From assembly GCA_015484555.1 (NCBI GenBank), contig WFMZ01000037.1, positions 1 to 48,319 on the forward strand: DNA of 48,319 nucleotides, read 5' to 3'. Source of the stretch: Hydrogenovibrio sp. (GTDB lineage Bacteria > Pseudomonadota > Gammaproteobacteria > Thiomicrospirales > Thiomicrospiraceae). The notes below the pieces were generated by a model. The model worked only from the letters and a program-made list of their open reading frames with translations. It made no database searches and was not told the DNA's origin. The position numbers and the translations under genes are program-made. Below, piece by piece: positions 9,824 through 44,422 of this stretch (position 1 is the stretch's first letter; each line of letters opens with the position of its first letter).

Positions 9824-9841
9824 AAAAATCGCCAGGGGTGG
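9824..9841 (+). repeat. Dispersed repeat A, copy 5 (single)
   Basis: AAAAATCGCCAGGGGTGG between bioB and bioF matches the consensus exactly. It has no inverted partner. Confidence 0.85.
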
Positions 9842-25015: not shown

Positions 25016-26479
25016 ATGAGTAGTAAAGAAGATTTATATAAGGATAATCATCAAACAGGTTCACTGTTAGATGATATGGATATGTCAAATAAAAACCTGC
25101 AAAGTATTGGGGTAGAACTCCTGCCCCTTCATACAGAGGGTACGGTTCATGCAAAGCGTATAGGCGGTGTTTTTAGGCAAGCGAAGAACCTGGTAATGAT
25201 TGCTTGGTTGGCCTTCTTTTTGTCTCCCTATCTTACGTGGAATGGTGAACAGGCGATTTTATTTGATATTGCCAACGGTAAGTTTCATATGTTTTGGATT
25301 ACCATTTTGCCACAAGATATTTGGGTGTTGGCTATGCTCTTATTGTTTGCCGCCCTTGCCTTGGCCGCCGTCACTGCGATTGCGGGTAGAGCTTGGTGTG
25401 GTTATGCCTGTTTTCAAACCGTCTGGCAAGATGCCTTTACCTGGTTAGAGGAGAAATTTGAAGGTCAACCAAATAAGCGAGCTAAGCTAGATGCTGCGCC
25501 CTGGTCTTTTAACAAGATAAAAATTAAGTTGCCAAAGTGGTTGTCTTGGGCGTTTATTGCCTTTATGACGGGCTTTTCTTTCGTGGCTTATTTTGTGCCA
25601 GTTCACGATCTTTGGGCTAGGTTATTTGCTTTTCAGTGGAGCTTGACTGAAACCAGTATAGTGCTAAGTTTGGCGGGTGCGACGTTCTTCTTCGCCGGTA
25701 TTTTGCGAGAACAAACTTGTATGGGGTTTTGCCCGTATTCTCGTATTCAGGGTGCAATGATAGATACTGAAACCGTTGTGCCAACCTATGACATTGATAG
25801 GGGTGAGCCAAGAGGCCGCCTGAAGCGTGCTAAGCCGGGTGTGGAAGTGCCTGTTTTAGGGGATTGTATTGACTGTAATTTGTGTGTCGCGGTTTGTCCG
25901 ACAGGGGTGGATATTCGTAAAGGCCAGCAGTTTGGTTGTATTACTTGTGGCCTTTGTATTGATGCTTGTGATTCGGTAATGGTGAAGCTTAAAAAGCCCA
26001 AAGGTCTAATTCGTTATGCCTCTTTAGCCGAGTTTGCTGGCAAGCCTTTTGTGGCCTTTGTGAAGCGTCCTCGTGTCATTGTTTATACCTCTATTATGTC
26101 CTTGGCCGCTGCTGTGATTGTGTGGGGGCTGTTGTCCATGTCACCTATCGATGTGAAAGTTTTGCATGAAAGAGCGCCGCTCTTTGTTTTGATGTCTGAT
26201 GGCACGATTCAAAATAAATATTATATTAAAGTTGTGAATAAAACCGAAAATGAAATAAAGGCTAAGATTTCTGTAGAAGGAATCTCAGACCTAACATTTG
26301 TTGTGGATAAAGTTTTGTTTGTTCCTGCGGGAGATGTGGGAAGCGCTCAGTTATTGGTTAGAGTACCTGAAAAAGACTTGAAAAAGACCGATATTCCTCT
26401 TGTTATTAAGGTGACAGATGAGGCGCAAGGTATTACATCTGAATATGACAGTAATTTCATTTCACCCAAGAAACGTTAA
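25016..26479 (+). CDS. ccoG: Cytochrome c oxidase accessory protein CcoG (RdxA/FixG)
   Basis: CcoG is a polytopic membrane protein with two [4Fe-4S] clusters that reduces Cu(II) to Cu(I) for cbb3 assembly. The ferredoxin motifs are at Cys284/287/290/294 (CIDCNLCVAVCP) and Cys308/311/314/318 (CITCGLCIDAC). A CGYAC cysteine pair near residue 125 and EQTCMGFCPYSR near 240 are also present. Several spans and a C-terminal periplasmic immunoglobulin-like domain (about 380-480) complete the 487 residues. GAGGGG precedes the ATG. It heads the ccoGHIS group. Confidence 0.95.
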   Translation: MSSKEDLYKDNHQTGSLLDDMDMSNKNLQSIGVELLPLHTEGTVHAKRIGGVFRQAKNLVMIAWLAFFLSPYLTWNGEQAILFDIANGKFHMFWITILPQDIWVLAMLLLFAALALAAVTAIAGRAWCGYACFQTVWQDAFTWLEEKFEGQPNKRAKLDAAPWSFNKIKIKLPKWLSWAFIAFMTGFSFVAYFVPVHDLWARLFAFQWSLTETSIVLSLAGATFFFAGILREQTCMGFCPYSRIQGAMIDTETVVPTYDIDRGEPRGRLKRAKPGVEVPVLGDCIDCNLCVAVCPTGVDIRKGQQFGCITCGLCIDACDSVMVKLKKPKGLIRYASLAEFAGKPFVAFVKRPRVIVYTSIMSLAAAVIVWGLLSMSPIDVKVLHERAPLFVLMSDGTIQNKYYIKVVNKTENEIKAKISVEGISDLTFVVDKVLFVPAGDVGSAQLLVRVPEKDLKKTDIPLVIKVTDEAQGITSEYDSNFISPKKR

Positions 26480-26572
26480 AAATATAAAAAATCGGTTTAA
26501 GATTTTTCAGTATAATCATTGTCCAAAACGCTATTTTATGGCGTTACGGCTTGTTTTATTTAGGGGTAAATT

Positions 26573-27118
26573 GTGTCTAAAGAAGGTTCTAGAGTGGTTG
26601 ATGAAGGGAAGAAAGATACTCGTGATTGGAGTAGTGCATGGAAAAATCCTTTTGTATTAGGTTGGATGCTGTTACTGGTCGTGGTGTTGTCGGTTAACTT
26701 TTTTATGGTGAGTATGGCTATTGTGACCGCACCAGGGTTAACGATTCCAGATTACTATGACAAAGGTAAAAATATGGGTGCGATTATTGCCCAGCGTGAA
26801 CACATGAAAGAACTAGGTTGGCAGCTTGAATTAGATGTTGATGGCCTGGTTCAAAATAGTCCTAAAAAGCTAACATTGCAGATCAAGGATAAAGCCGGTA
26901 ATTTGTTCGCTACGGATACGGCGGTATTGTACTACTACCGTTCATCAGACAATAAGTATGATGGTGAAGTTGCTTTTACGCCAACGGATAAAGTCGGTGT
27001 CTATACTGCGGAAATTAGCTTGCCTTTAAAGGGTAAGTACGATGTGGTGATGGAAGTTGTTAAGGGTAAAGAAACGTTTAATGTCGGTAAAATGATTATG
27101 GTTAAAGAGCAGAAATAA
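26573..27118 (+). CDS. ccoH: cbb3 oxidase assembly protein CcoH (FixH)
   Basis: CcoH is an assembly factor that associates with the oxidase during maturation. The 181-residue protein has a cytoplasmic N terminus ([20 protein letters not shown]), one span at about 27-52 and a periplasmic domain with the family block [19 protein letters not shown] in variant form ([17 protein letters not shown]). The start is GTG at 26573, after AGGGG. It is 93 bases behind ccoG and 3 bases before ccoI. Confidence 0.88.
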
Positions 27119-27121
27119 GCC

Positions 27122-29629
27122 ATGGATCAAAATTGTTGTTTTCATTGTGGTCAAGCCATTCCTAATGGTGATCAGGTGGTGCAACCTATTCAAGGAGAGG
27201 ATAAAGTCTTTTGTTGTCATGGTTGTGCTGGAGTCTGTGATGTTATTTATGAAGCTGGCATGGAAAGCTTTTATAAAAGAGCATTAAATGGTGAACAGCT
27301 TAGTCCGCCTCCTCCACCCAGTCAAGATACGAACTTTTTAGATTACGATGAAGTGCAGTCTCAATTTGTGCAAGACCTTTCTAAGGTTAGGGATATTACC
27401 TTAATATCTGAAACCATTCATTGTGCTGCCTGTATTTGGCTTATAGAGCGGTCGCTTGCACAAATAGAGGGTGTCCAGTTCGCCAAGGTTAACTTTACCA
27501 ATAAACAAATTAAAATCCGTTGGGATAATGATCAAATAAAATTATCCGACCTGGTTAAGGGGTTAAATCGTATTGGGTATGATGCGACTCCTTATGATGC
27601 ATCTGCTAGCGAAGCGGCTTACAGAAAAGCTAATAAAGATTTACTGTATCGTTTAGGTTATGCTGGATTTGCCATGATGAATGTCATGTGGATTTCTGTT
27701 GCACTTTATGCTGGTGCTGATGAGGATATGGACTTTAGGGGCTATTTTCACTGGGTAGAGTTTGTGATTGCTTCTACGGTCATATTCTATTCTGCACGCC
27801 CTTTCTTTGCGGGTGCTTTTCGTTCATTAAAAGCTCGTGCTGTCGGTATGGATGTATCAATCTCTCTTGGTATATTAACAACCTATTTATATTCTTTTTG
27901 GGTAACGATTGACCCTAATCATCCTGGTAATGTCTATTTTGATACGATGATTGACTTCACTTTCTTGCTGTTAATCGGTCGCTATCTAGAAGCTATTTAT
28001 AAAAATAAGGCCATGGACTCTACTAAGAGGCTAATGGATTTACAGCCTAAAGTTGCGCGCTTAGAGGTAGGTGAGTCTGTTGATATTGTACCTGTTCGTA
28101 AACTGGTAGCGGGTGATGTGGTTATAGTGAAGCCGGGTGATAAAATTCCCGTAGATGGGGTGGTGGTATTTGGTCAGTCTAGTGTTGATGAGTCGATGCT
28201 GAGCGGAGAGTCAAATGAAGTCTTAAAACGTGAGGAATCAAAGGTCTTTGCGGGTACTCATAACTTAGATGGCATGATTAAAATTAGTGTGGTCGCTACT
28301 TTACAAAACACCTCTTTGGGTAAAATTGTCCACATGGTGGAAGATGCACAAGGTGCTAAAGCCCCTATTCAATGTACAGCAGAAAAGATTATGCCTTGGT
28401 TTGTCAGTGTTGTTCTCGTCTTGGCTGTTGTCACCTTTACTTATTGGGTGTTTGCAGAAAGCTTAGAGACGGCCATGATTGCTGCCACTTCGGTTTTAAT
28501 CATTACCTGTCCTTGTGCTTTTGGTTTAGCTACTCCGATGGCAACGGCGGTGGCATCGGGTGTTTCGGCGACTCATGGTCTTTTAATTAAAAATGGTGCA
28601 GTACTTGAGGTTTTAAACGAGGTAGATCACTTTGTCTTTGACAAAACAGGCACCTTAACCAAAGGAAAAATGGCTTTAACTCACTTTGAATTAGTTAATT
28701 CTGTTGCAGAAGTTGACGTTTTAAATGCAATAGCAGATATTGAAAAGCTGTCAGAACACAGTTTGGCAAAAGCGTTAAGTGAAGGTTTGAAGCAGCAGGT
28801 ATCAGTGAAAAAAAGAGTGGAGGTATCTAGCTTTAAAACTTTTTCTGGCAAAGGTGTTTCGGCGACAACGACTCAAGAAGGTGTCGTTTCAGAATACCAG
28901 ATTGGCACCTTAGCTTGGCTGCAGCAGTCGAATATTCAAGCCCCTACAAACTTCATTGCCCTAGCAAATGAGCGTGCAGTATTAGCACAAACGGCTGTTT
29001 GGGTGGCTAGGTCTAATAAAGTGGTGGGTATCTTCTTTTTGGAAGATGAAATTAGAGAAGATGCCAAGGCGTTAATACATCGTCTGCAAGTTCGAGGCAA
29101 GAAGGTTATTTTACTGACGGGTGATCGCCAGTTAGTTGCGGAAGCGGTGGTTAAAAGGTTAACCAAGGAGACGGAATCTATTCAAGTCATTGCAGAAGTA
29201 TTACCTGAAGATAAGCATGATGTGATTAAAGCGCTTCAGTTGTCAGGTGCGAATGTTGCTATGATTGGCGATGGTATTAATGATGCTCCGGCTCTGGCTC
29301 GTGCTAACGTATCTTTTGCTTTAGGTTCAGGCACAGATGTTTCCATGGATAGTTCTGATGTGATTATTTTGAACAATGAATTGCTGTCAGTAGATACAGC
29401 GATTGACTTGTCTGCGAGAACGCTAAGAACTATTCATCAAAATATTGCCAGCAGTATTATTTATAATGTGACGTTGGTACCTTTGGCAATGGCGGCTTTG
29501 TTGACGCCGATGATTGCCGCGATTACCATGCCCTTAAGTAGCTTAATTGTAATTGGTAATGCGGCACGTATTCGAAATTTCTATTCTAAAAAAGCAATAG
29601 CTAAAAGAGCTGAACGCTTTAATCAATAA
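27122..29629 (+). CDS. ccoI: Copper-exporting P1B-type ATPase CcoI (FixI)
   Basis: CcoI moves Cu(I) across the inner membrane for cbb3 assembly rather than for detoxification. The 835-residue chain starts with a cysteine-rich segment (CCFHCGQ and CCHGCAGVC), then a heavy-metal-associated domain with CAAC at 101-104. The metal-binding CPC is at 463-465 (TCPCAFGLATP), the phosphorylated Asp507 in DKTGTLT, and GDGINDAPAL near 720 is the hinge. It is larger than simple CopA because of the N-terminal cysteine segment, which is characteristic of FixI. It is 3 bases behind ccoH. Confidence 0.95.
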   Translation: MDQNCCFHCGQAIPNGDQVVQPIQGEDKVFCCHGCAGVCDVIYEAGMESFYKRALNGEQLSPPPPPSQDTNFLDYDEVQSQFVQDLSKVRDITLISETIHCAACIWLIERSLAQIEGVQFAKVNFTNKQIKIRWDNDQIKLSDLVKGLNRIGYDATPYDASASEAAYRKANKDLLYRLGYAGFAMMNVMWISVALYAGADEDMDFRGYFHWVEFVIASTVIFYSARPFFAGAFRSLKARAVGMDVSISLGILTTYLYSFWVTIDPNHPGNVYFDTMIDFTFLLLIGRYLEAIYKNKAMDSTKRLMDLQPKVARLEVGESVDIVPVRKLVAGDVVIVKPGDKIPVDGVVVFGQSSVDESMLSGESNEVLKREESKVFAGTHNLDGMIKISVVATLQNTSLGKIVHMVEDAQGAKAPIQCTAEKIMPWFVSVVLVLAVVTFTYWVFAESLETAMIAATSVLIITCPCAFGLATPMATAVASGVSATHGLLIKNGAVLEVLNEVDHFVFDKTGTLTKGKMALTHFELVNSVAEVDVLNAIADIEKLSEHSLAKALSEGLKQQVSVKKRVEVSSFKTFSGKGVSATTTQEGVVSEYQIGTLAWLQQSNIQAPTNFIALANERAVLAQTAVWVARSNKVVGIFFLEDEIREDAKALIHRLQVRGKKVILLTGDRQLVAEAVVKRLTKETESIQVIAEVLPEDKHDVIKALQLSGANVAMIGDGINDAPALARANVSFALGSGTDVSMDSSDVIILNNELLSVDTAIDLSARTLRTIHQNIASSIIYNVTLVPLAMAALLTPMIAAITMPLSSLIVIGNAARIRNFYSKKAIAKRAERFNQ

Positions 29630-29844: not shown

Positions 29845-30168
29845 TACGAGCTGGTCTTTATCCCAACCTGTAAAATCGCCAGGGGTGGTCTTGTCTTAAG
29901 CGGTGAATTTAGCATTGCTATCCAAACCTATTTTGTAGTTTAGCCCTTTCTTTTCGGGCAGTTAGTCCCTAGTTTTACTTATATCTTATAAAAACTTCAT
30001 ATTGCAAAACCTCTCGTTTTAGGGTAATATTCTGCCTCGCTTTTTTCTATAGCGAGGTTTCGCCGTGCGAACCTTGAAAGTAGATTAAAGACTTAATTTG
30101 TTTATTTTATTAGTGCCGTGCCGGTGAAATTAAAGGTGCGGGCTAAGGTTTGTTTGGGGTCTGTCCGT
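29845..30168. promoter_or_regulatory. 324-base region upstream of the glutamate synthase operon
   Basis: It holds a repeat A copy at 29872-29888 and a small stem CCTCGC/GCGAGG at 30035-30040 and 30052-30057 in what is probably the leader of the next mRNA. TTATATCTTATAAAA near 29970-29990 is AT-rich and could hold a promoter, but no clear minus-35/minus-10 pair stands out. The open frame continues upstream to GTG 30118 without good family similarity. Confidence 0.4.
29872..29888 (+). repeat. Dispersed repeat A, copy in ccoS-gltB gap
   Basis: AAAATCGCCAGGGGTGG matches the consensus exactly. It follows the end of ccoS by 27 bases and has no inverted partner. Confidence 0.85.
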
Positions 30169-33100
30169 ATGTCACATTGCTTTTATGATAAAACTTTAGA
30201 ACACTCAAGTTGTGGTGTTGGGTTTATTACTTGTAAGTCTGGTAAGCAAAGTCAGAAGACGATGCAGCTTGCGCATCGTGCTTTATGTGAGATTCCTCAC
30301 CGAGGAGGCATGAGTGCGGAAGGTATCGGTGATGGCGCCGGTGTGAATATTGATCTGTCTGTAAACTTTTTTCGCCATCTTACGGGCCTCACTAATTTAA
30401 ATGCTGGTGAATACGGTGTCGCAAACTTTTTTTTCCCAGAAGGTGAGCAAGCTGAAACAGCCTGTAAAGCTTTAATTGACCAACAGCTAGCGGCGCAAAA
30501 TATGACTGTCCAGCAATGGCGTGATGTCGCGGTAGATGAGTCTGTGCTAAACGAAGCCAGCCGTGCTGTGCAACCAATGATTCGTCAGGTGATATTCTTA
30601 CGCCCAGCAGATATAGCTAGCTGGGATGCTTTTGAGAGTAAAGTCGCTGATGCTTTAACTGCCATTGAAGAGCATGCGTTCAATGAAGATGCTTACATCG
30701 GTTTATATCCGCTTTCAATGAGCACTAAAACACAGGTTTATAAATCGCGTTTAAACTCTTGGGAAGTGATTCCCTACTTTAAAGATTTATCGAATCCTGA
30801 ACACCAAATTAGTACCTTGTTTTTTCATACTCGTTTCTCAACCAATACAGCGCCAAACCCTATGTTTGCGCAACCATTCCGTCGCATGGCGCATAATGGT
30901 GAGTTGAATACAGACCAAAAGAACCGCTTAAGTGAAGATGCTATTGCGCGTCAACACGGTCAGAAAATTACCTTCCCACCAGGCCAGTCCGATTCGGCGC
31001 GTTTAGATCAAACGCTTGAACGCCGTATTCGTGAAGATAAGCTAGAAATTGATAAAGCTTTGTTAGCGATGATGCCGCCTGCTTGGGAAAACGATCCACA
31101 TTATTCGAAACAAGTCCATGACATGCTGGAATATTTTAGCCTGTACGAAGAAAAGAATGATGGGCCAGCGGCTATTATTTTCTACGATGGAAATAAGGTG
31201 GGTGCACGTTTGGATCGTTTAGGGCTGCGCCCATTACGAACTGAAGAAACTGAAGAATATTTAACCGTTGCCAGTGAATCGGGTCAATTCGATTTTCCAC
31301 CAGAAGAAGTGATTCACCGAGGTCGTATCGAAGCGGGTGGCATGATCATGTTTAACCATGCTACCCAAGAGTTATTGCACACAGATGCCATTCTTGAAAG
31401 CATGGCAACGGAGCAAAATTATAGTGAGTTGTTAGATCAAGCTCGTTTAACACTTGCTGACTTACCTGCTGCAAAGCTAGAAGACTTTCCTTTGAATAAT
31501 ACATTTAAAGTCCCCGCTCAGCACGTGGGTTATAGCATGAGTCAGGAAAGCTTTAAGTTCTTCCTTGATCCAATGTTACAGAAAGGCGCAGAGCAAATTT
31601 TTGCGATGGGTTATGGTCGTGCACCCAACGCTTTATCTGATGATGAAGGTGGTATGTCTCGTTTCTTCAGTCAGCGTTTTGCACAGGTAACCAACCCGCC
31701 GTTAGATTCTATTCGCGAAGCCGACGGCATGACACTGCGAGTATCTTTAGGGTCAAAACCTCACTTCTGTGATACAGACTTTAAACAAATTTCATTAGAA
31801 TCACCTGTGTTACAGCCTCAGCAGTTGCTACAAATTGAACAGGCAGGTGAAGCCGGTACATTAAGTGTGGCAAAAATTAGTACCCTCTACACGCCAGATA
31901 CTAATAATGTGGCACAAAACCAAGCTAATATTAATGCCGCCGTTGCGAAGGTTTGTGATGAAGCTGAGGCTTTAGCACGCGCTAAGACAGGTATTATCAT
32001 TTTAAGTGATCAAGGTTTAGCAAAAAACCAAGCAGCCTTGCCAGCAGTCTTAACTATTTCGGCAGCAAACCAGCGTCTAATTAAAGCTGGCTTGCGTTTT
32101 AACTCAACCTTTATCTACTTAACGGGCCAAGCTGTTAGTACACACGATGTTGCGGTTCTACTTGGTTTTGGTGCCTCAGCGGTATGTCCATTGACCGTCT
32201 TTAACCGCGCCTTAGAGTTTAATAATTCTTATGAAAAGGTAGCGGCTGCTTTAAAGAACTTCCAAAAAGCGGTTGAAAAAGCACTGATGAAAACCATGGG
32301 TAAATTTGGTCTTTGTACGGTCGAAAGTTATATTGGTGGTGAGTTTTTTGAAGCCAACTTTATTGACACGTTAGATGAAAATTTAAAAGATGTCTTTCCA
32401 AATATTTACTCACCTATTGGTGGTGTAGGGTTTGCAGAAATTGCTAAGAGCTCAACGCTTTGGCACCAAACTATGTTGGAAATTGATGCTGAAAAAGATA
32501 TTCCTTTATTAGGTCTGTTTAAAGAACGTTCAGATGGTTCTGGTCATAGTTTCGGTAATGTCGCTGTTCGTGGTTTCGGTGAAATGACGTCAGAAAATAT
32601 CACTTTTGAAGATGATAGTGCAAGCGAACAATCTGCTATTTTGCCAGAAGATGATAGCTATAAAGACACCAGTTATGATAAGCGTACAACTGAAGAGATG
32701 GACGGTCATGCCATTACGCCAGCTTACAGAAGCTTCTCTAAAATGTTGCATGAAGAGCGTCTAGAGCGCCCATCAACCATGAGAGATGTAATGGGGCTAC
32801 CAGTAAATATTTTAGACTGCAACAGTCAGTCAGACTTTGCTGAAGCTTTGGCTTCGTTCCTGTTTGAAAGTAATGGTAGCTTTGCCATTCAAGGATTAAC
32901 GTCCGCCCAGTTTACTAATGGCAAGCTAAGTGTTTCCCTAGAAGGTGGAAGTTCTGCTCGTGAGCAAGCCTTTGTGGCTGCTGCAGAAGCTTGGTTAGAT
33001 AATGATCCAACTAAGCTTGAAAGCTTTGCAAATAATATTAAATCAACGCCTGCTCCTGTTGCGTTAGCATCGGTTCAGCCTGCTCATGAAATTACCCAAG

Positions 33101-35559
33101 CCTTTGCTTCGGGTGCAATGAGTCATGGCGCCTTAGTTGCGCAGGCGCATGAAGCGGTTGCTCATGGAACCAACATGGTTGGCGCCATGAGTAACTCGGG
33201 AGAGGGTGGCGAAAACTCTAAGCGTTATAACACCATTAAAGCCAGCCGTATCAAGCAATTTGCTTCAGGGCGTTTTGGTATCTGGGCAGGTTACTTAGCC
33301 GATCCCAACCTAGAAGAAATTGAAATTAAATTAGCGCAAGGTGCAAAACCAGGGGAAGGTGGACAGCTTCCCTCTGCCAAGGTAACCGTTGAAATTGCTG
33401 CTGCACGTGGTGGTACACCGGGTGTTGAGCTGGTTTCTCCTCCGCCACATCATGATACCTATTCAATTGAAGATTTAGGGCAGTTAATTCACGATGCAAA
33501 AGCAGCTCGTGTTCGTGTTATCGTTAAGCTGGTTTCTTCTAAAGGAATTGGTACGATTGCGGTGGGTGTTGCGAAAGCCGGTGCAGACATTATTAACGTT
33601 GCTGGTAACACTGGTGGAACAGGTGCTGCCCAGGTAACCAGTCTTAAGCATACAGGTCGTGCTGCAGAAATTGGTATTGCAGAAGTTCATCAGGCATTAG
33701 CTGAAAATGGTTTGCGAGACAAAGTATTGTTGCGTTGTTCAAACGCGCACCAGACTGGTTTAGATGTTGTTAAGTCAGCGATGATGGGGGGAGATTCTTT
33801 CGAATTTGGAACCACTGCCTTAATGATGTTGAAATGTGTGATGGCTAAAAACTGCCACATTAAATGCCCTGCCGGTCTAACCACTAACCCAGAAGTTTAT
33901 GAAGGTGATCCTCGTGCCTTGGCGCAGTATTACATCAATATGGCACATGAAATTCGTGAAATATTAGCTTCTATCGGCTTTAGCTCACTAAAAGACATTC
34001 GTGGCCGTGGCGATTTATTGCACCTAATGGATCATAAAGCCATTTCGGGTAATTTATACGTAGCCTCAATGTTACGTCATGTACCTGAAGTGATCGTGAG
34101 CAAGAAGGTTTATTTAGAAGCAAACTTTGAAATTGATGATTTCATGTTATCAGAATTTAAAAATCAGTTTGCACAAGCAGATGAAGCTCATCATATTAAT
34201 ATTAATGTAGGCGAGCTAACCAACCGTAATAAAACAACGGGTGGTCAGTTCTCGGTAGATGTTGAACGCTTCTTAAACTACGAATTAACCCAGGAACAGG
34301 CGCAAGCTCACCCTGCGGTAAAAGAATTGAACAAAGGTCGTCGTACCCTTGAAAAAGGAACCGTGACGGTTAACAGTACACACGCAGCTGGGCAAAGTTT
34401 TGGTGCCTTTAACAATACGGGTATTACCTTAGTTCATTCAGGAACCTGTAATGACGGTGTTGGTAAAGCCCAGTCTGGTGGTGTTATTGTTGTGCAAAGC
34501 CCCGGTGGCGGTTGTACAACTGAGCTAGGGAATGTATTAGTCGGTAACTTTGCGCTGTTTGGCGCAACCGGTGGAAAGCTTTATATCGCAGGTCAGGCGG
34601 GCGACCGTTTCGGCGTGCGCAACTCGGGTGCCGTGGCCGTGGTAGAAGGTGTGGGTGATTTCTGTGCCGAATACATGACCAATGGTGGTATCGTTAACCT
34701 AGGTGTATTTGGTAAAGGCTTCGGTAATGGTATGAGTGGTGGAACGGCTTATCAGTATGATCCAACACATAGTATCAAAGCCAATCACTCTGCCGATTCA
34801 GTGGTGGTATTAGATTTAGCGGATGATAATGAATTTATGCTCGGTCAGCGCCAATCTGTTTTTGTGCACTTAACCAATCATGTTGAAAGAACAGGCTCTG
34901 TTAAAGCGGCTAACATTCTGGCAAACTGGGAAAATGAAATTAAAAACTTCCACGTTATTATGCCCAAAGCACTGTACGACTTCCATACTGCGGAACGCAT
35001 TATTACCTTGTGTGACCGCAAGAAAATGATTGAAGAATTAAGCTTGAACTACAGCGAACAAGGGATGAAAGAAATTAGGCTGGCCTATAAAAAGGGGCAA
35101 GCTTTATTTAATGGTCGTGTCCCTGGTTTTGAAAGCATATCTGATGCAGACAAGGCGTTGAGTGCGAATTTAATCAACAAGGCTGCTATTCTGGATATTG
35201 CTTTACAGCAAGCTAGAAAAATAGACGTTGCAAAATCCGAAGAGATTGCTAAAAAATTAATCGTAACCTTAGATTCAAAGTTAATGGATCACATTGCAAA
35301 AGATGCGCGTGGTGTTTTATCTGACTATAATGATGAAACCTTATCAGTCTTCTTGGCAGCTAAGCGTTTAGCGGATTATAAAACCTCGCTTATTTTAAGA
35401 GAAGTTTGTGATACACAAGCCTTTGGTACTACCGTTTGGATTATTCACCGAGATAGAGTGAACCAGGCCGCTTTAAGTCAACATGAAAGTATTGCAAGTA
35501 AAATGGCTAAGTTTAATACAGGTGCCATGGCTGAATATATGGTTTCAGAAAATATATAG
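30169..35559 (+). CDS. gltB: Divergent, extra-long glutamate synthase large subunit
   Basis: The family makes two glutamates from glutamine and 2-oxoglutarate. Residue 15 is the N-terminal nucleophile Cys after processing (SSCGVGFI). The class II amidotransferase blocks FHTRFSTNT, AHNGELNT and QSDSARLDQTLE are present, then IKQFASGRFGI, AQGAKPGEGGQLP and SPPPHHD of the FMN domain and a GxGxG helix. Three things are unusual. The iron-sulfur cysteines are Cys1223/1229/1233 (C-x5-C-x3-C in place of C-x5-C-x4-C). SGHDGGTG is AGNTGGTG at 1145-1152 and PVGVATQ is PAGLTTN. At 1796 residues it exceeds the usual 1480-1550: an insert lies at about 877-965 and an extension at about 1606-1796. ATG 30169 is preferred over GTG 30118. 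A diflavin reductase follows 23 bases on; there is no gltD. Confidence 0.85.
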   Translation: MSHCFYDKTLEHSSCGVGFITCKSGKQSQKTMQLAHRALCEIPHRGGMSAEGIGDGAGVNIDLSVNFFRHLTGLTNLNAGEYGVANFFFPEGEQAETACKALIDQQLAAQNMTVQQWRDVAVDESVLNEASRAVQPMIRQVIFLRPADIASWDAFESKVADALTAIEEHAFNEDAYIGLYPLSMSTKTQVYKSRLNSWEVIPYFKDLSNPEHQISTLFFHTRFSTNTAPNPMFAQPFRRMAHNGELNTDQKNRLSEDAIARQHGQKITFPPGQSDSARLDQTLERRIREDKLEIDKALLAMMPPAWENDPHYSKQVHDMLEYFSLYEEKNDGPAAIIFYDGNKVGARLDRLGLRPLRTEETEEYLTVASESGQFDFPPEEVIHRGRIEAGGMIMFNHATQELLHTDAILESMATEQNYSELLDQARLTLADLPAAKLEDFPLNNTFKVPAQHVGYSMSQESFKFFLDPMLQKGAEQIFAMGYGRAPNALSDDEGGMSRFFSQRFAQVTNPPLDSIREADGMTLRVSLGSKPHFCDTDFKQISLESPVLQPQQLLQIEQAGEAGTLSVAKISTLYTPDTNNVAQNQANINAAVAKVCDEAEALARAKTGIIILSDQGLAKNQAALPAVLTISAANQRLIKAGLRFNSTFIYLTGQAVSTHDVAVLLGFGASAVCPLTVFNRALEFNNSYEKVAAALKNFQKAVEKALMKTMGKFGLCTVESYIGGEFFEANFIDTLDENLKDVFPNIYSPIGGVGFAEIAKSSTLWHQTMLEIDAEKDIPLLGLFKERSDGSGHSFGNVAVRGFGEMTSENITFEDDSASEQSAILPEDDSYKDTSYDKRTTEEMDGHAITPAYRSFSKMLHEERLERPSTMRDVMGLPVNILDCNSQSDFAEALASFLFESNGSFAIQGLTSAQFTNGKLSVSLEGGSSAREQAFVAAAEAWLDNDPTKLESFANNIKSTPAPVALASVQPAHEITQAFASGAMSHGALVAQAHEAVAHGTNMVGAMSNSGEGGENSKRYNTIKASRIKQFASGRFGIWAGYLADPNLEEIEIKLAQGAKPGEGGQLPSAKVTVEIAAARGGTPGVELVSPPPHHDTYSIEDLGQLIHDAKAARVRVIVKLVSSKGIGTIAVGVAKAGADIINVAGNTGGTGAAQVTSLKHTGRAAEIGIAEVHQALAENGLRDKVLLRCSNAHQTGLDVVKSAMMGGDSFEFGTTALMMLKCVMAKNCHIKCPAGLTTNPEVYEGDPRALAQYYINMAHEIREILASIGFSSLKDIRGRGDLLHLMDHKAISGNLYVASMLRHVPEVIVSKKVYLEANFEIDDFMLSEFKNQFAQADEAHHININVGELTNRNKTTGGQFSVDVERFLNYELTQEQAQAHPAVKELNKGRRTLEKGTVTVNSTHAAGQSFGAFNNTGITLVHSGTCNDGVGKAQSGGVIVVQSPGGGCTTELGNVLVGNFALFGATGGKLYIAGQAGDRFGVRNSGAVAVVEGVGDFCAEYMTNGGIVNLGVFGKGFGNGMSGGTAYQYDPTHSIKANHSADSVVVLDLADDNEFMLGQRQSVFVHLTNHVERTGSVKAANILANWENEIKNFHVIMPKALYDFHTAERIITLCDRKKMIEELSLNYSEQGMKEIRLAYKKGQALFNGRVPGFESISDADKALSANLINKAAILDIALQQARKIDVAKSEEIAKKLIVTLDSKLMDHIAKDARGVLSDYNDETLSVFLAAKRLADYKTSLILREVCDTQAFGTTVWIIHRDRVNQAALSQHESIASKMAKFNTGAMAEYMVSENI

Positions 35560-35582
35560 TTGCGCAGACAGGAAATAGACAA

Positions 35583-37358
35583 ATGACACAGTTAAATGAC
35601 GGACTTAAAAAATCACTGCTTCCTGCGAATGCACCTTTTTCAGCAGAACAGAAAACTTGGTTAGGTGGCTTCTTTTCGGGGTTGCGTTCACATCTAGCCA
35701 TTACGCAAAGCCTAGTTCCAGCTCAAGTAGCAGGTAAGCCCATTACCATTATTTATGGTACCCAAACAGGTAACGCAGAAAACTGTGCCTATGACGTAGC
35801 AGATGCGGCGACCGCTTTGGGCTTGGCGCCTGTTGTGATGGATATGGATGACGTAGAGCTTGAAGAGTTGGCACAAGCCGAACGCATTTTGGTTTGTACC
35901 AGTACTTATGGTGAAGGCGAAATGCCTGATAATGCCGCGGCACTTTGGGAAGCTATTAGTTCTGATCACGCGCCTAGTTTTGAAAACAGCTTCTTCTCGG
36001 TATTAGCCTTGGGTGATACGGGATACGATGACTTCTGCCTAAGTGGTAAGCAGTGGGATGAACGCTTAGCCGAGTTAGGTGCAACGCGTATTGCAGACCG
36101 TGTTGATTGTGATGTTGACTATGAAGAGCCAGCAGCAGAATGGACAGCCGCCGCTTTAGAAATTATTAAAGACAAAGGGTCAGAAGCAGCCGCTTCTTCC
36201 GTACCCACCGCGGCAGCACCTAAGAAAGCAAAGTCAAAATTTGGTCGCAAAAACCCCATGCTAGCCCCTTTAATTGCTAAGCGTCGCCTAACCAGAGAGC
36301 AGTCTAGTAAAGAGATTATGCATTTTGAATTCTCTATTGCTGACACGGGTGAAAGCTACGAAGCGGGTGATGCGTTAAATATTATTCCACGTAACCAGCC
36401 AGCTTTAGTGGCTGAGTTGATGGCGATTTTTAACATTGCCGATGATCAGCAAGCTGACTATGAAGGTGAGCAGGTAGTTTTAAAATCCTTGTTTACTGAT
36501 ATTGTTGAAATTCGCACGCCTTCAAAAGATTTTATTCAGCTAATAGCCCCGTTATCGGGCGACAACACTTTTGCTGAAATGGTCGTGAATAAAGATAATA
36601 CAGGCCTAAACAACTTCCTTTATGGCAAGGATGTAGTTGACCTGTTGAATGCCTATAATTCGGTGGCTAATATTTCTTTAGAAGATTTGTTGAAAACACT
36701 AAAAGCCATTGCACCAAGAGCCTATTCTATTGCTTCAAGTGTAAATGCGCACAAAGATGAAGTGCATTTAACCATCGGCAGCGTTCGTTACAATCAAGAA
36801 GGGCGTGATCATAATGGTGTTTGCTCTACTTTCTTGGCAGATATTGCTAACGAAGGGGAAGGAATACAGTGTTATTTTGCGCCTAACAAAGCCTTTTCAG
36901 TGCCTGAAGATGACAGTACCGATATTATCATGGTTGGCCCAGGAACCGGTATCGCACCTTTTCGTGGTTTCATTGAAGAGCGTGAAGCTCGCAATGCATC
37001 AGGTCAAAATTGGTTGTTCTTTGGCGACCGAAATAAAGAAAATGATTTTATCTACCGTGAACAGTTAGAATCCTTAGAAGCTAAAGGATTGTTACGTTTA
37101 GACCTAGCCTTCTCTCGAGATCAAGAAGCCAAAATTTATGTGCAAACACGTATGAAAGAAAAAGGTGCCGAGTTCTTTGAATGGCTAGAGAAGGGTGCTT
37201 ACTTTTATATTTGTGGTGATGCCTTCCGTATGGCAAAAGATGTCGATGCGACCATTCATGAAATAGTGATGGAGCATGGCAACATGGACAAAGCAGCTGC
37301 AGAGGATTACGTAAATGCTTTGAGAAAAGCCAAACGTTATGTCAGAGACGTTTATTAA
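35583..37358 (+). CDS. CysJ-family diflavin reductase, operon partner of GltB
   Basis: This 591-residue protein passes electrons from NADPH through FAD to FMN. An N-terminal segment of about 50 residues precedes the flavodoxin domain (about 53-195, IIYGTQTGNAENCAYD), a basic linker, and the ferredoxin reductase half. RAYSIASS at 379-386 is the FAD motif, VGPGTGIAPFRGF at 451-463 binds NADPH, and the end YVRDVY matches CysJ of sulfite reductase. No cysI is in the window. Position 23 bases after gltB, before a strong terminator, implies a shared transcript. It may feed the glutamate synthase in place of GltD, or sulfite reductase coded elsewhere; the sequence alone does not decide. Confidence 0.9.
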   Translation: MTQLNDGLKKSLLPANAPFSAEQKTWLGGFFSGLRSHLAITQSLVPAQVAGKPITIIYGTQTGNAENCAYDVADAATALGLAPVVMDMDDVELEELAQAERILVCTSTYGEGEMPDNAAALWEAISSDHAPSFENSFFSVLALGDTGYDDFCLSGKQWDERLAELGATRIADRVDCDVDYEEPAAEWTAAALEIIKDKGSEAAASSVPTAAAPKKAKSKFGRKNPMLAPLIAKRRLTREQSSKEIMHFEFSIADTGESYEAGDALNIIPRNQPALVAELMAIFNIADDQQADYEGEQVVLKSLFTDIVEIRTPSKDFIQLIAPLSGDNTFAEMVVNKDNTGLNNFLYGKDVVDLLNAYNSVANISLEDLLKTLKAIAPRAYSIASSVNAHKDEVHLTIGSVRYNQEGRDHNGVCSTFLADIANEGEGIQCYFAPNKAFSVPEDDSTDIIMVGPGTGIAPFRGFIEEREARNASGQNWLFFGDRNKENDFIYREQLESLEAKGLLRLDLAFSRDQEAKIYVQTRMKEKGAEFFEWLEKGAYFYICGDAFRMAKDVDATIHEIVMEHGNMDKAAAEDYVNALRKAKRYVRDVY

Positions 37359-37380: not shown

Positions 37381-37408
37381 AAAAAACCAGACTTTGCTCT
37401 GGTTTTTT
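37381..37408 (+). terminator. Terminator of the gltB-diflavin reductase operon
   Basis: AAAAAACCAGA at 37381-37391 and TCTGGTTTTTT at 37398-37408 form a perfect stem with loop CTTTGC and a T tract. It closes the two-gene operon 22 bases after the reductase stop. Confidence 0.93.
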
Positions 37409-37497: not shown

Positions 37498-37514
37498 AAA
37501 ATCGCCAGGGGTGG
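37498..37514 (+). repeat. Dispersed repeat A, copy with CCTT flank
   Basis: AAAATCGCCAGGGGTGG preceded by CCTT, as in the copies at 43805 and 44405. It lies between the operon terminator and the IS3 orfA remnant. Confidence 0.85.
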
Positions 37515-37589: not shown

Positions 37590-37745
37590 ATGAAAAAATC
37601 ACATTTTAACGACAGCCAAATACTCGCTATTTTAAAACAAGCCGAAAACGGTGTACCTATACCCGAACTATGCCGTGAGTACGGTATGAGTAATTCAAGT
37701 TTTTATAAATGGCGCTTCAAATACGGCGGAATGGATGCATTCTAG
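37590..37745 (+). pseudogene. Truncated IS3-family transposase OrfA
   Basis: The frame from ATG 37590 gives about 51 residues, MKKSHFNDSQILAILKQAE and onward to CREYGMSNSSFYKWRFKYGGMDAF, then TAG at 37743. This is the helix-turn-helix N-terminal part of IS3-type OrfA. Full OrfA runs on for another 40-50 residues after GGMDA, forming a leucine zipper, and OrfB with the DDE catalytic core is missing. So this is a remnant, not an active element. No clear terminal inverted repeats were found. Confidence 0.88.
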
Positions 37746-44404: not shown

Positions 44405-44422
44405 AAAATCGCCAGGGGTGGG
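44405..44422 (+). repeat. Dispersed repeat A, copy after GyrI-like gene
   Basis: AAAATCGCCAGGGGTGGG preceded by AAACCTT, very close to the copies at 37498 and 43805. It lies in the convergent gap between the GyrI-like gene and gpmI, 24 bases before the terminator stem. Confidence 0.85.

Follow-up and report, generated by a model that had tools for sequence, protein, structure and literature searches.

A long glutamate synthase large subunit paired with a CysJ-like diflavin reductase: a probable NADPH-dependent glutamate synthase without GltD

Glutamate synthase, an enzyme central to ammonia assimilation and a model iron-sulfur (Fe-S) flavoenzyme, has a large subunit, GltB, that binds a 3Fe-4S cluster and flavin mononucleotide (FMN). 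Electrons enter it through GltD, through ferredoxin, or through fused bacterial subunits, as outlined in a 2021 review (PMC8097209). A putative F420H2-dependent enzyme of methanogens, FGltS, is also a synthase with a different input subunit, in that case an F420H2 dehydrogenase related to Fsr-N and akin to one used by a sulfite reductase (PMC3448663). Here we describe a locus in contig WFMZ01000037.1 of Hydrogenovibrio sp. (48,319 nucleotides; this whole stretch is called the window), in which the input protein would instead be a CysJ-type diflavin protein, encoded directly behind a long gltB. Comparison of these sequences leads us to put the probability at roughly 85% that the two genes encode one enzyme, a glutamate synthase dependent on reduced nicotinamide adenine dinucleotide phosphate (NADPH), with the diflavin reductase in GltD's place. 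This form of glutamate synthase is widespread and apparently has not been described before; no description of the pair was found in the PMC literature searched by title and start of abstract, a scope outside which most subscription journals lie and where a prior account is possible.

The locus consists of two genes and a terminator-like element:
30169..35559, + strand: long gltB open reading frame (ORF); ATG start; 1796 amino acids; Pfam domains GATase_2, Glu_syn_central, Glu_synthase and GXGXG
35583..37358, + strand: CysJ-like NADPH diflavin reductase; 591 amino acids; Pfam domains Flavodoxin_1, FAD_binding_1 and NAD_binding_1
37381..37408, + strand: terminator-like stem-loop with T-run; -11.4 kcal/mol, z-score -3.8

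A prediction made earlier from the letters of the window alone (the original prediction) had described gltB and a CysJ-family gene 23 bases apart, ending in one strong terminator and with no gltD nearby. The ORF coordinates bear out the spacing of 23 bp between the two forward-strand genes (an alternative GTG start at 30118, giving an ORF of 30118-35559, has the ATG at 30169 in frame). As for the terminator, none of 200 shuffled sequences was as stable as the stem-loop with its T-run; it is not among the results of a consensus terminator scan. As to gltD, none lies near the pair, and neither a GltD match nor a complete gltBD elsewhere was found in the window's 94%-complete genome (best E value 0.1 with E. 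coli GltD; no match to PF14691, the Fe-S domain of GltD, also called Fer4_20). The pair thus differs from GltBD of Azospirillum and E. coli by having no GltD, hence no 4Fe-4S relay, and a diflavin reductase partner instead, while the long GltB shares its domain order, catalytic motifs and 3Fe-4S cysteines, and NADPH is the expected donor. The ferredoxin-dependent synthase of plants and cyanobacteria is likewise a GltB-type protein without GltD, and here too electrons would enter at the 3Fe-4S cluster; the window pair, instead, has a dedicated NADPH reductase gene adjacent to it and does not carry the insertion of the solved ferredoxin-dependent enzyme.

The linkage of the two genes is retained across genomes. 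At 86 of 88 long-GltB loci found via GltB, the CysJ-like gene follows directly on the same strand, and the other two (L062 and L101) stop at a contig end inside gltB, so that the reductase gene stands beside gltB at every testable locus, the co-occurrence that the original prediction had looked to for support. Four loci (L052, L053, L057 and L086) have a gltB that is interrupted or read as fragments, and the apparent gap is larger in three of these. Scanning a single genome for each species gave at least 542 confirmed relatives, with the reductase just downstream in 78 of the best 80. In a class-wide search with the C-terminal extension of the long GltB, 4 of 369 genomes matched, including the window's, all four with the reductase gene just downstream; a search of the phylum matched 6 of 398 genomes, and the four that were new all carry the pair. 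Nine plasmid records matching a 282-amino-acid C-terminal stretch of the Shinella protein are also the top nine plasmid records for the reductase, and the four inspected belong to Shinella, Sinorhizobium, Ketogulonicigenium and Tsukamurella. Scan loci, genomes of the class and phylum searches and plasmid records may overlap in species. The best 80 scan loci comprise 78 from Pseudomonadota (41 Gammaproteobacteria, 36 Alphaproteobacteria, and 1 unranked) and two from metagenome-assembled genomes labelled Verrucomicrobia (L089) and Aquimarina (L062). Both of the latter may reflect binning error; loci near L089 by protein distance are of Rhodobacterales type, which makes such an error likely there.

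The reductase is related to CysJ, the flavoprotein (SiRFP) of assimilatory sulfite reductase, yet set apart from it. It has the same FMN, flavin adenine dinucleotide (FAD) and NADPH domains, all found by Pfam, and matches the CysJ model TIGR01931 over nearly its full length, but at 595.2 bits against a cut-off of 668.15 and with gltB, not cysI, as its partner. When sequence motifs were counted in 89 reductases (window, 77 of the 78 scan loci, and 11 others), GPGTG.APF and K.YVQ were present in all 89 and SRDQ in 88; two of the reductase motif patterns are missed even by E. coli CysJ. In a tree of 77 reductases, made by a quick method with Shimodaira-Hasegawa-like approximate likelihood ratio test (SH-aLRT) support and no bootstrap, a branch with SH-aLRT 97 sets off the 56 GltB-linked rows and a second branch, with 99, the 20 CysI-linked rows; one nitrate-reductase-fused relative falls between the two groups. 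The GltB-linked rows represent 48 of the 80 scan loci, seven others and the window; 10 broken or partial scan loci were left out, and redundancy among the others was reduced at 88% identity of the C-terminal region. This distinctness agrees with what the original prediction would lead one to expect, and so does the distribution of CysI. Among 48 pair-bearing genomes (44 of the 80 scan loci plus four other genomes, picked mainly to avoid repeated species; hereafter carriers), CysI scores above the cut-off in 19, and six have no CysI-family match. A separate CysJ adjoins CysI at 16 of the 16 CysI loci read (those of the 19 except G391, G394, and G398; L141, L145, and L149 are cut by the end of the sequence read), and a cysI lacking a cysJ of its own, which together with poor conservation of the pair would have spoken against the original prediction, was not encountered among them. 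The window's genome yielded only a 20-bit CysI match inside a NirB-like ORF, and the complete genome G169 no CysI-family match. We therefore consider the window reductase most unlikely to be an ordinary CysJ, given its score below the TIGR01931 cut-off, the lack of a CysI partner in these searches and its separate tree group.

The large subunit is altered as well, on which the original prediction was silent: GltB of the window has 1796 amino acids vs 1486 in E. coli, about 300 more, and its Fe-S motif is changed. An alignment of seven relatives with E. coli GltB divides the surplus between a central segment (about 130 amino acids), which precedes the synthase domain, and a C-terminal extension (about 190 amino acids), the latter absent from the E. 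coli protein. Structure was modeled from alignments of the window with 48 loci and of the window with 47 loci (L102, with a short segment, being omitted), and confidence is given as the predicted local distance difference test (pLDDT):
30211..30213, + strand: Cys codon of the predicted mature N terminus (SSCGVGFI), class II glutaminase nucleophile, by alignment with E. coli GltB
32434..33096, + strand: central-to-FMN/synthase region holding the extra segment of about 130 amino acids, partly alpha+beta; alignments, model mean pLDDT 73.8
33835..33867, + strand: shortened 3Fe-4S ligand motif C-x5-C-x3-C (CVMAKNCHIKC)
34918..35556, + strand: end of the beta-helix plus the C-terminal extension of about 190 amino acids, predicted all-helical; model mean pLDDT 93.5

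Neither the central segment nor the C-terminal extension has a credible relative in Pfam, among PDB sequences or among PDB folds. The remainder of the protein resembles that of a glutamate synthase: the domain set of the large subunit (glutaminase, central, FMN/synthase, and GXGXG) is complete, and the NCBIfam large-subunit model PRK11750 is narrowly missed (1036.7 bits vs a cut-off of 1047). Of eight glutaminase and synthase motif patterns, all occur in each of 83 long GltBs except the N-terminal Cys motif, which 82 have (L117 misses it), this set being the window, 71 of the 80 scan loci and 11 others; nine scan loci whose longest gltB ORF is below 1700 amino acids, broken or cut, were omitted. 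The C-x5-C-x3-C spacing, which the scan patterns CVMAKNC and GGDSFEFG leave unfixed, is likewise found in 83 of 83. All five distinct solved synthase chains matched have one residue more (C-x5-C-x4-C), as do the eight canonical neighbor GltBs compared (8/8); the five chains are 7mfm, three chains from Azospirillum and, as the ferredoxin-dependent member, 1llw. At positions 1023-1025 of the window GltB, one residue replaces about 24 in 1llw (914-939), an insertion that is presumably the ferredoxin loop.

How far the pair takes the place of gltBD differs between genomes. PF04898, the GltB central domain, occurs once only, in the long form, in 16 of the 48 carriers, and these include all 15 carriers without PF14691; the sixteenth (G414) has one PF14691 match in a 466-amino-acid frame, a putative GltD. 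Two of the 15, G268 and G169, are 100% complete, in two contigs and one contig, respectively. The partner swap proposed in the original prediction is supported by these 15 genomes, but the pair is no replacement in the 32 carriers that keep a GltD-type domain along with a second GltB. Within the family of the window's genome, PF14691 and a GltB of canonical length are present in all 21 relatives, 10 of which belong to the same genus, and a long GltB was found in none of them (two of the frames are truncated, and an additional weak match of 27 bits occurs in one genome). A long GltB without PF14691 is confined to the window's genome in this family. Because all of these relatives keep GltB and PF14691, the pair would have replaced gltBD in the window's lineage, an order of gain and loss that we infer from the sequences. 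Elsewhere, a GltD-like ORF with 31% identity to E. coli GltD lies upstream of the pair at L170 (G485), and in six Vibrio loci (L053, L069, L074, L075, L079, and L080) an ordinary gltB-gltD immediately precedes the long gltB and reductase genes. Since the pair coexists with gltBD in other carriers, side by side in several Vibrio, it likely has a second, conditional role there.

In the window's genome, glutamate dehydrogenase (PF00208) has no match, and a molybdopterin oxidoreductase adjoins a NirB-like protein, as expected of nitrate assimilation; together, these features imply that a working glutamate synthase would be needed. The PF00208 search covered the 16 carriers with the long GltB alone, and four of them gave no match. 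Matches to the PF00208 family do occur in Pseudovibrio stylochi and P. hongkongensis (G416 and G420), two carriers that have neither another GltB-type protein nor a GltD domain. On contig C54 of the same genome (L042:104-1705), a 533-amino-acid protein fuses CDGSH iron-binding and FMN/glutamate synthase domains, with no glutaminase domain.

The electron path and activity of the pair, as we infer them from sequence, would run as follows. NADPH would reduce the FAD of the diflavin reductase, which would then reduce the FMN of its flavodoxin domain; this domain would dock near the remodeled cluster loop and hand single electrons to the 3Fe-4S cluster, which would pass them to the synthase FMN for reduction of the 2-iminoglutarate that forms when channelled ammonia meets 2-oxoglutarate. 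In this scheme, the reductase's FMN domain would act as ferredoxin or the GltD clusters do elsewhere, and the shortened Cys2-Cys3 loop, like the added segments, would be an adaptation to a donor of the flavodoxin type, the central insert and the helical C-terminal domain likely being docking or assembly surfaces. In the reductase tree, some gammaproteobacterial rows, among them the SAR92 group and G314 (L041), are interspersed with alphaproteobacterial ones, and the same gammaproteobacterial rows have alphaproteobacterial near neighbors in GltB distances too (L109 is nearest to L041). Because this holds for both proteins, it suggests that the pair moved between lineages as a unit. We consider it probable that the pair represents a glutamate synthase class of its own that is found widely in Proteobacteria. 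Its amidotransferase would be driven directly by a P450-reductase-like diflavin protein whose FMN domain is mobile, and both GltD 4Fe-4S clusters would be bypassed, with the Fe-S loop and the two added segments remodeled for docking, the operon acting as a travelling cassette, and gltBD displaced in several lineages.

Several observations weigh against this reading. The window's genome is a draft in 73 contigs, and it encodes two short GltB-like proteins (PF01645 without a glutaminase domain), which may be helpers of the pair. The looser reductase patterns are incompletely conserved (first FMN motif 88/89, RxYS.SS 86/89, second flavodoxin loop 84/89, and GVCS-like 79/89). Pairwise distances of GltB and reductase correlate strongly (r of 0.94 over 60 pairs; shuffled maximum, 0.16), as would be expected for any two co-inherited genes, and strongly supported splits conflict between the trees in 3 of 39 cases for GltB and 2 of 25 for the reductase; one such split involves L041, so that details of the two trees differ. 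Finally, 32 of the 48 carriers have a second GltB-type match, all 32 together with PF14691, and in these the pair may act under particular conditions or on a different substrate. A rival reading, which we regard as unlikely, makes the pair an oxidoreductive amidotransferase that is related to glutamate synthase but acts on a different 2-oxo acid. While it could draw on this coexistence (with gltBD adjoining in some Vibrio) and on the two extra segments of the long GltB, the synthase and glutaminase motifs are conserved in 82 to 83 of 83 proteins, and in 16 of 48 genomes the long GltB is the sole PF04898 protein, four of these also lacking a PF00208 match.

Alternatively, a ferredoxin or flavodoxin might feed the long GltB, with the CysJ-like protein only recharging the soluble carrier or serving another pathway. 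Diflavin reductases are in principle capable of reducing soluble acceptors. The ferredoxin-dependent enzyme also works without GltD, according to the review cited above (PMC8097209). Yet the reductase gene is linked to gltB at 86 of 86 testable loci, and the 1llw insertion of about 24 residues is missing, and we rate this possibility as slimmer still. That the reductase might be a plain CysJ of sulfite (or nitrite) reductase, beside gltB by chance, seems highly improbable: its closest solved relatives are indeed sulfite reductase flavoprotein chains, and many alphaproteobacterial carriers have distant nitrite/sulfite reductase matches, but 29 of 48 carriers have no CysI above the cut-off, six of them no match at all, and at each of the 16 CysI loci read CysI is accompanied by a different CysJ, with the GltB-linked proteins in a separate tree group. 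A single NADPH-dependent glutamate synthase made of both proteins therefore remains our preferred reading, and comparative genomics leaves the original prediction, taken as a whole, well supported.

Other features of the window include a short ORF fragment directly past the pair's terminator (37590-37745), which we take to resemble the start of an IS3-type transposase. The 17-base sequence AAAATCGCCAGGGGTGG occurs 12 times in the window at up to 2 mismatches (0.02 expected), with exact copies at 5-21, 9825-9841, 29872-29888, 37498-37514, and 44405-44421 and seven further copies with 1 or 2 mismatches. It is a scattered repeat, chiefly intergenic and twice present as a close inverted pair, and was found in 7 of 171 loci, every one from the window's own genome. 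At 25016-29629, CcoG is encoded close to a heavy-metal P-type ATPase, presumably the arrangement of cytochrome cbb3 oxidase assembly clusters.

If the pair is indeed a glutamate synthase, several hundred sequenced species would use a wiring that does not need low-potential 4Fe-4S clusters, and it could be tested directly which centers are indispensable for electrons to reach the synthase FMN. Genes annotated, for example, as "sulfite reductase subunit alpha" or "glutamate synthase-related protein" would need new labels. The pair would also parallel the F420 case in that an input module of sulfite reductase would be common to glutamate synthase (PMC3448663).

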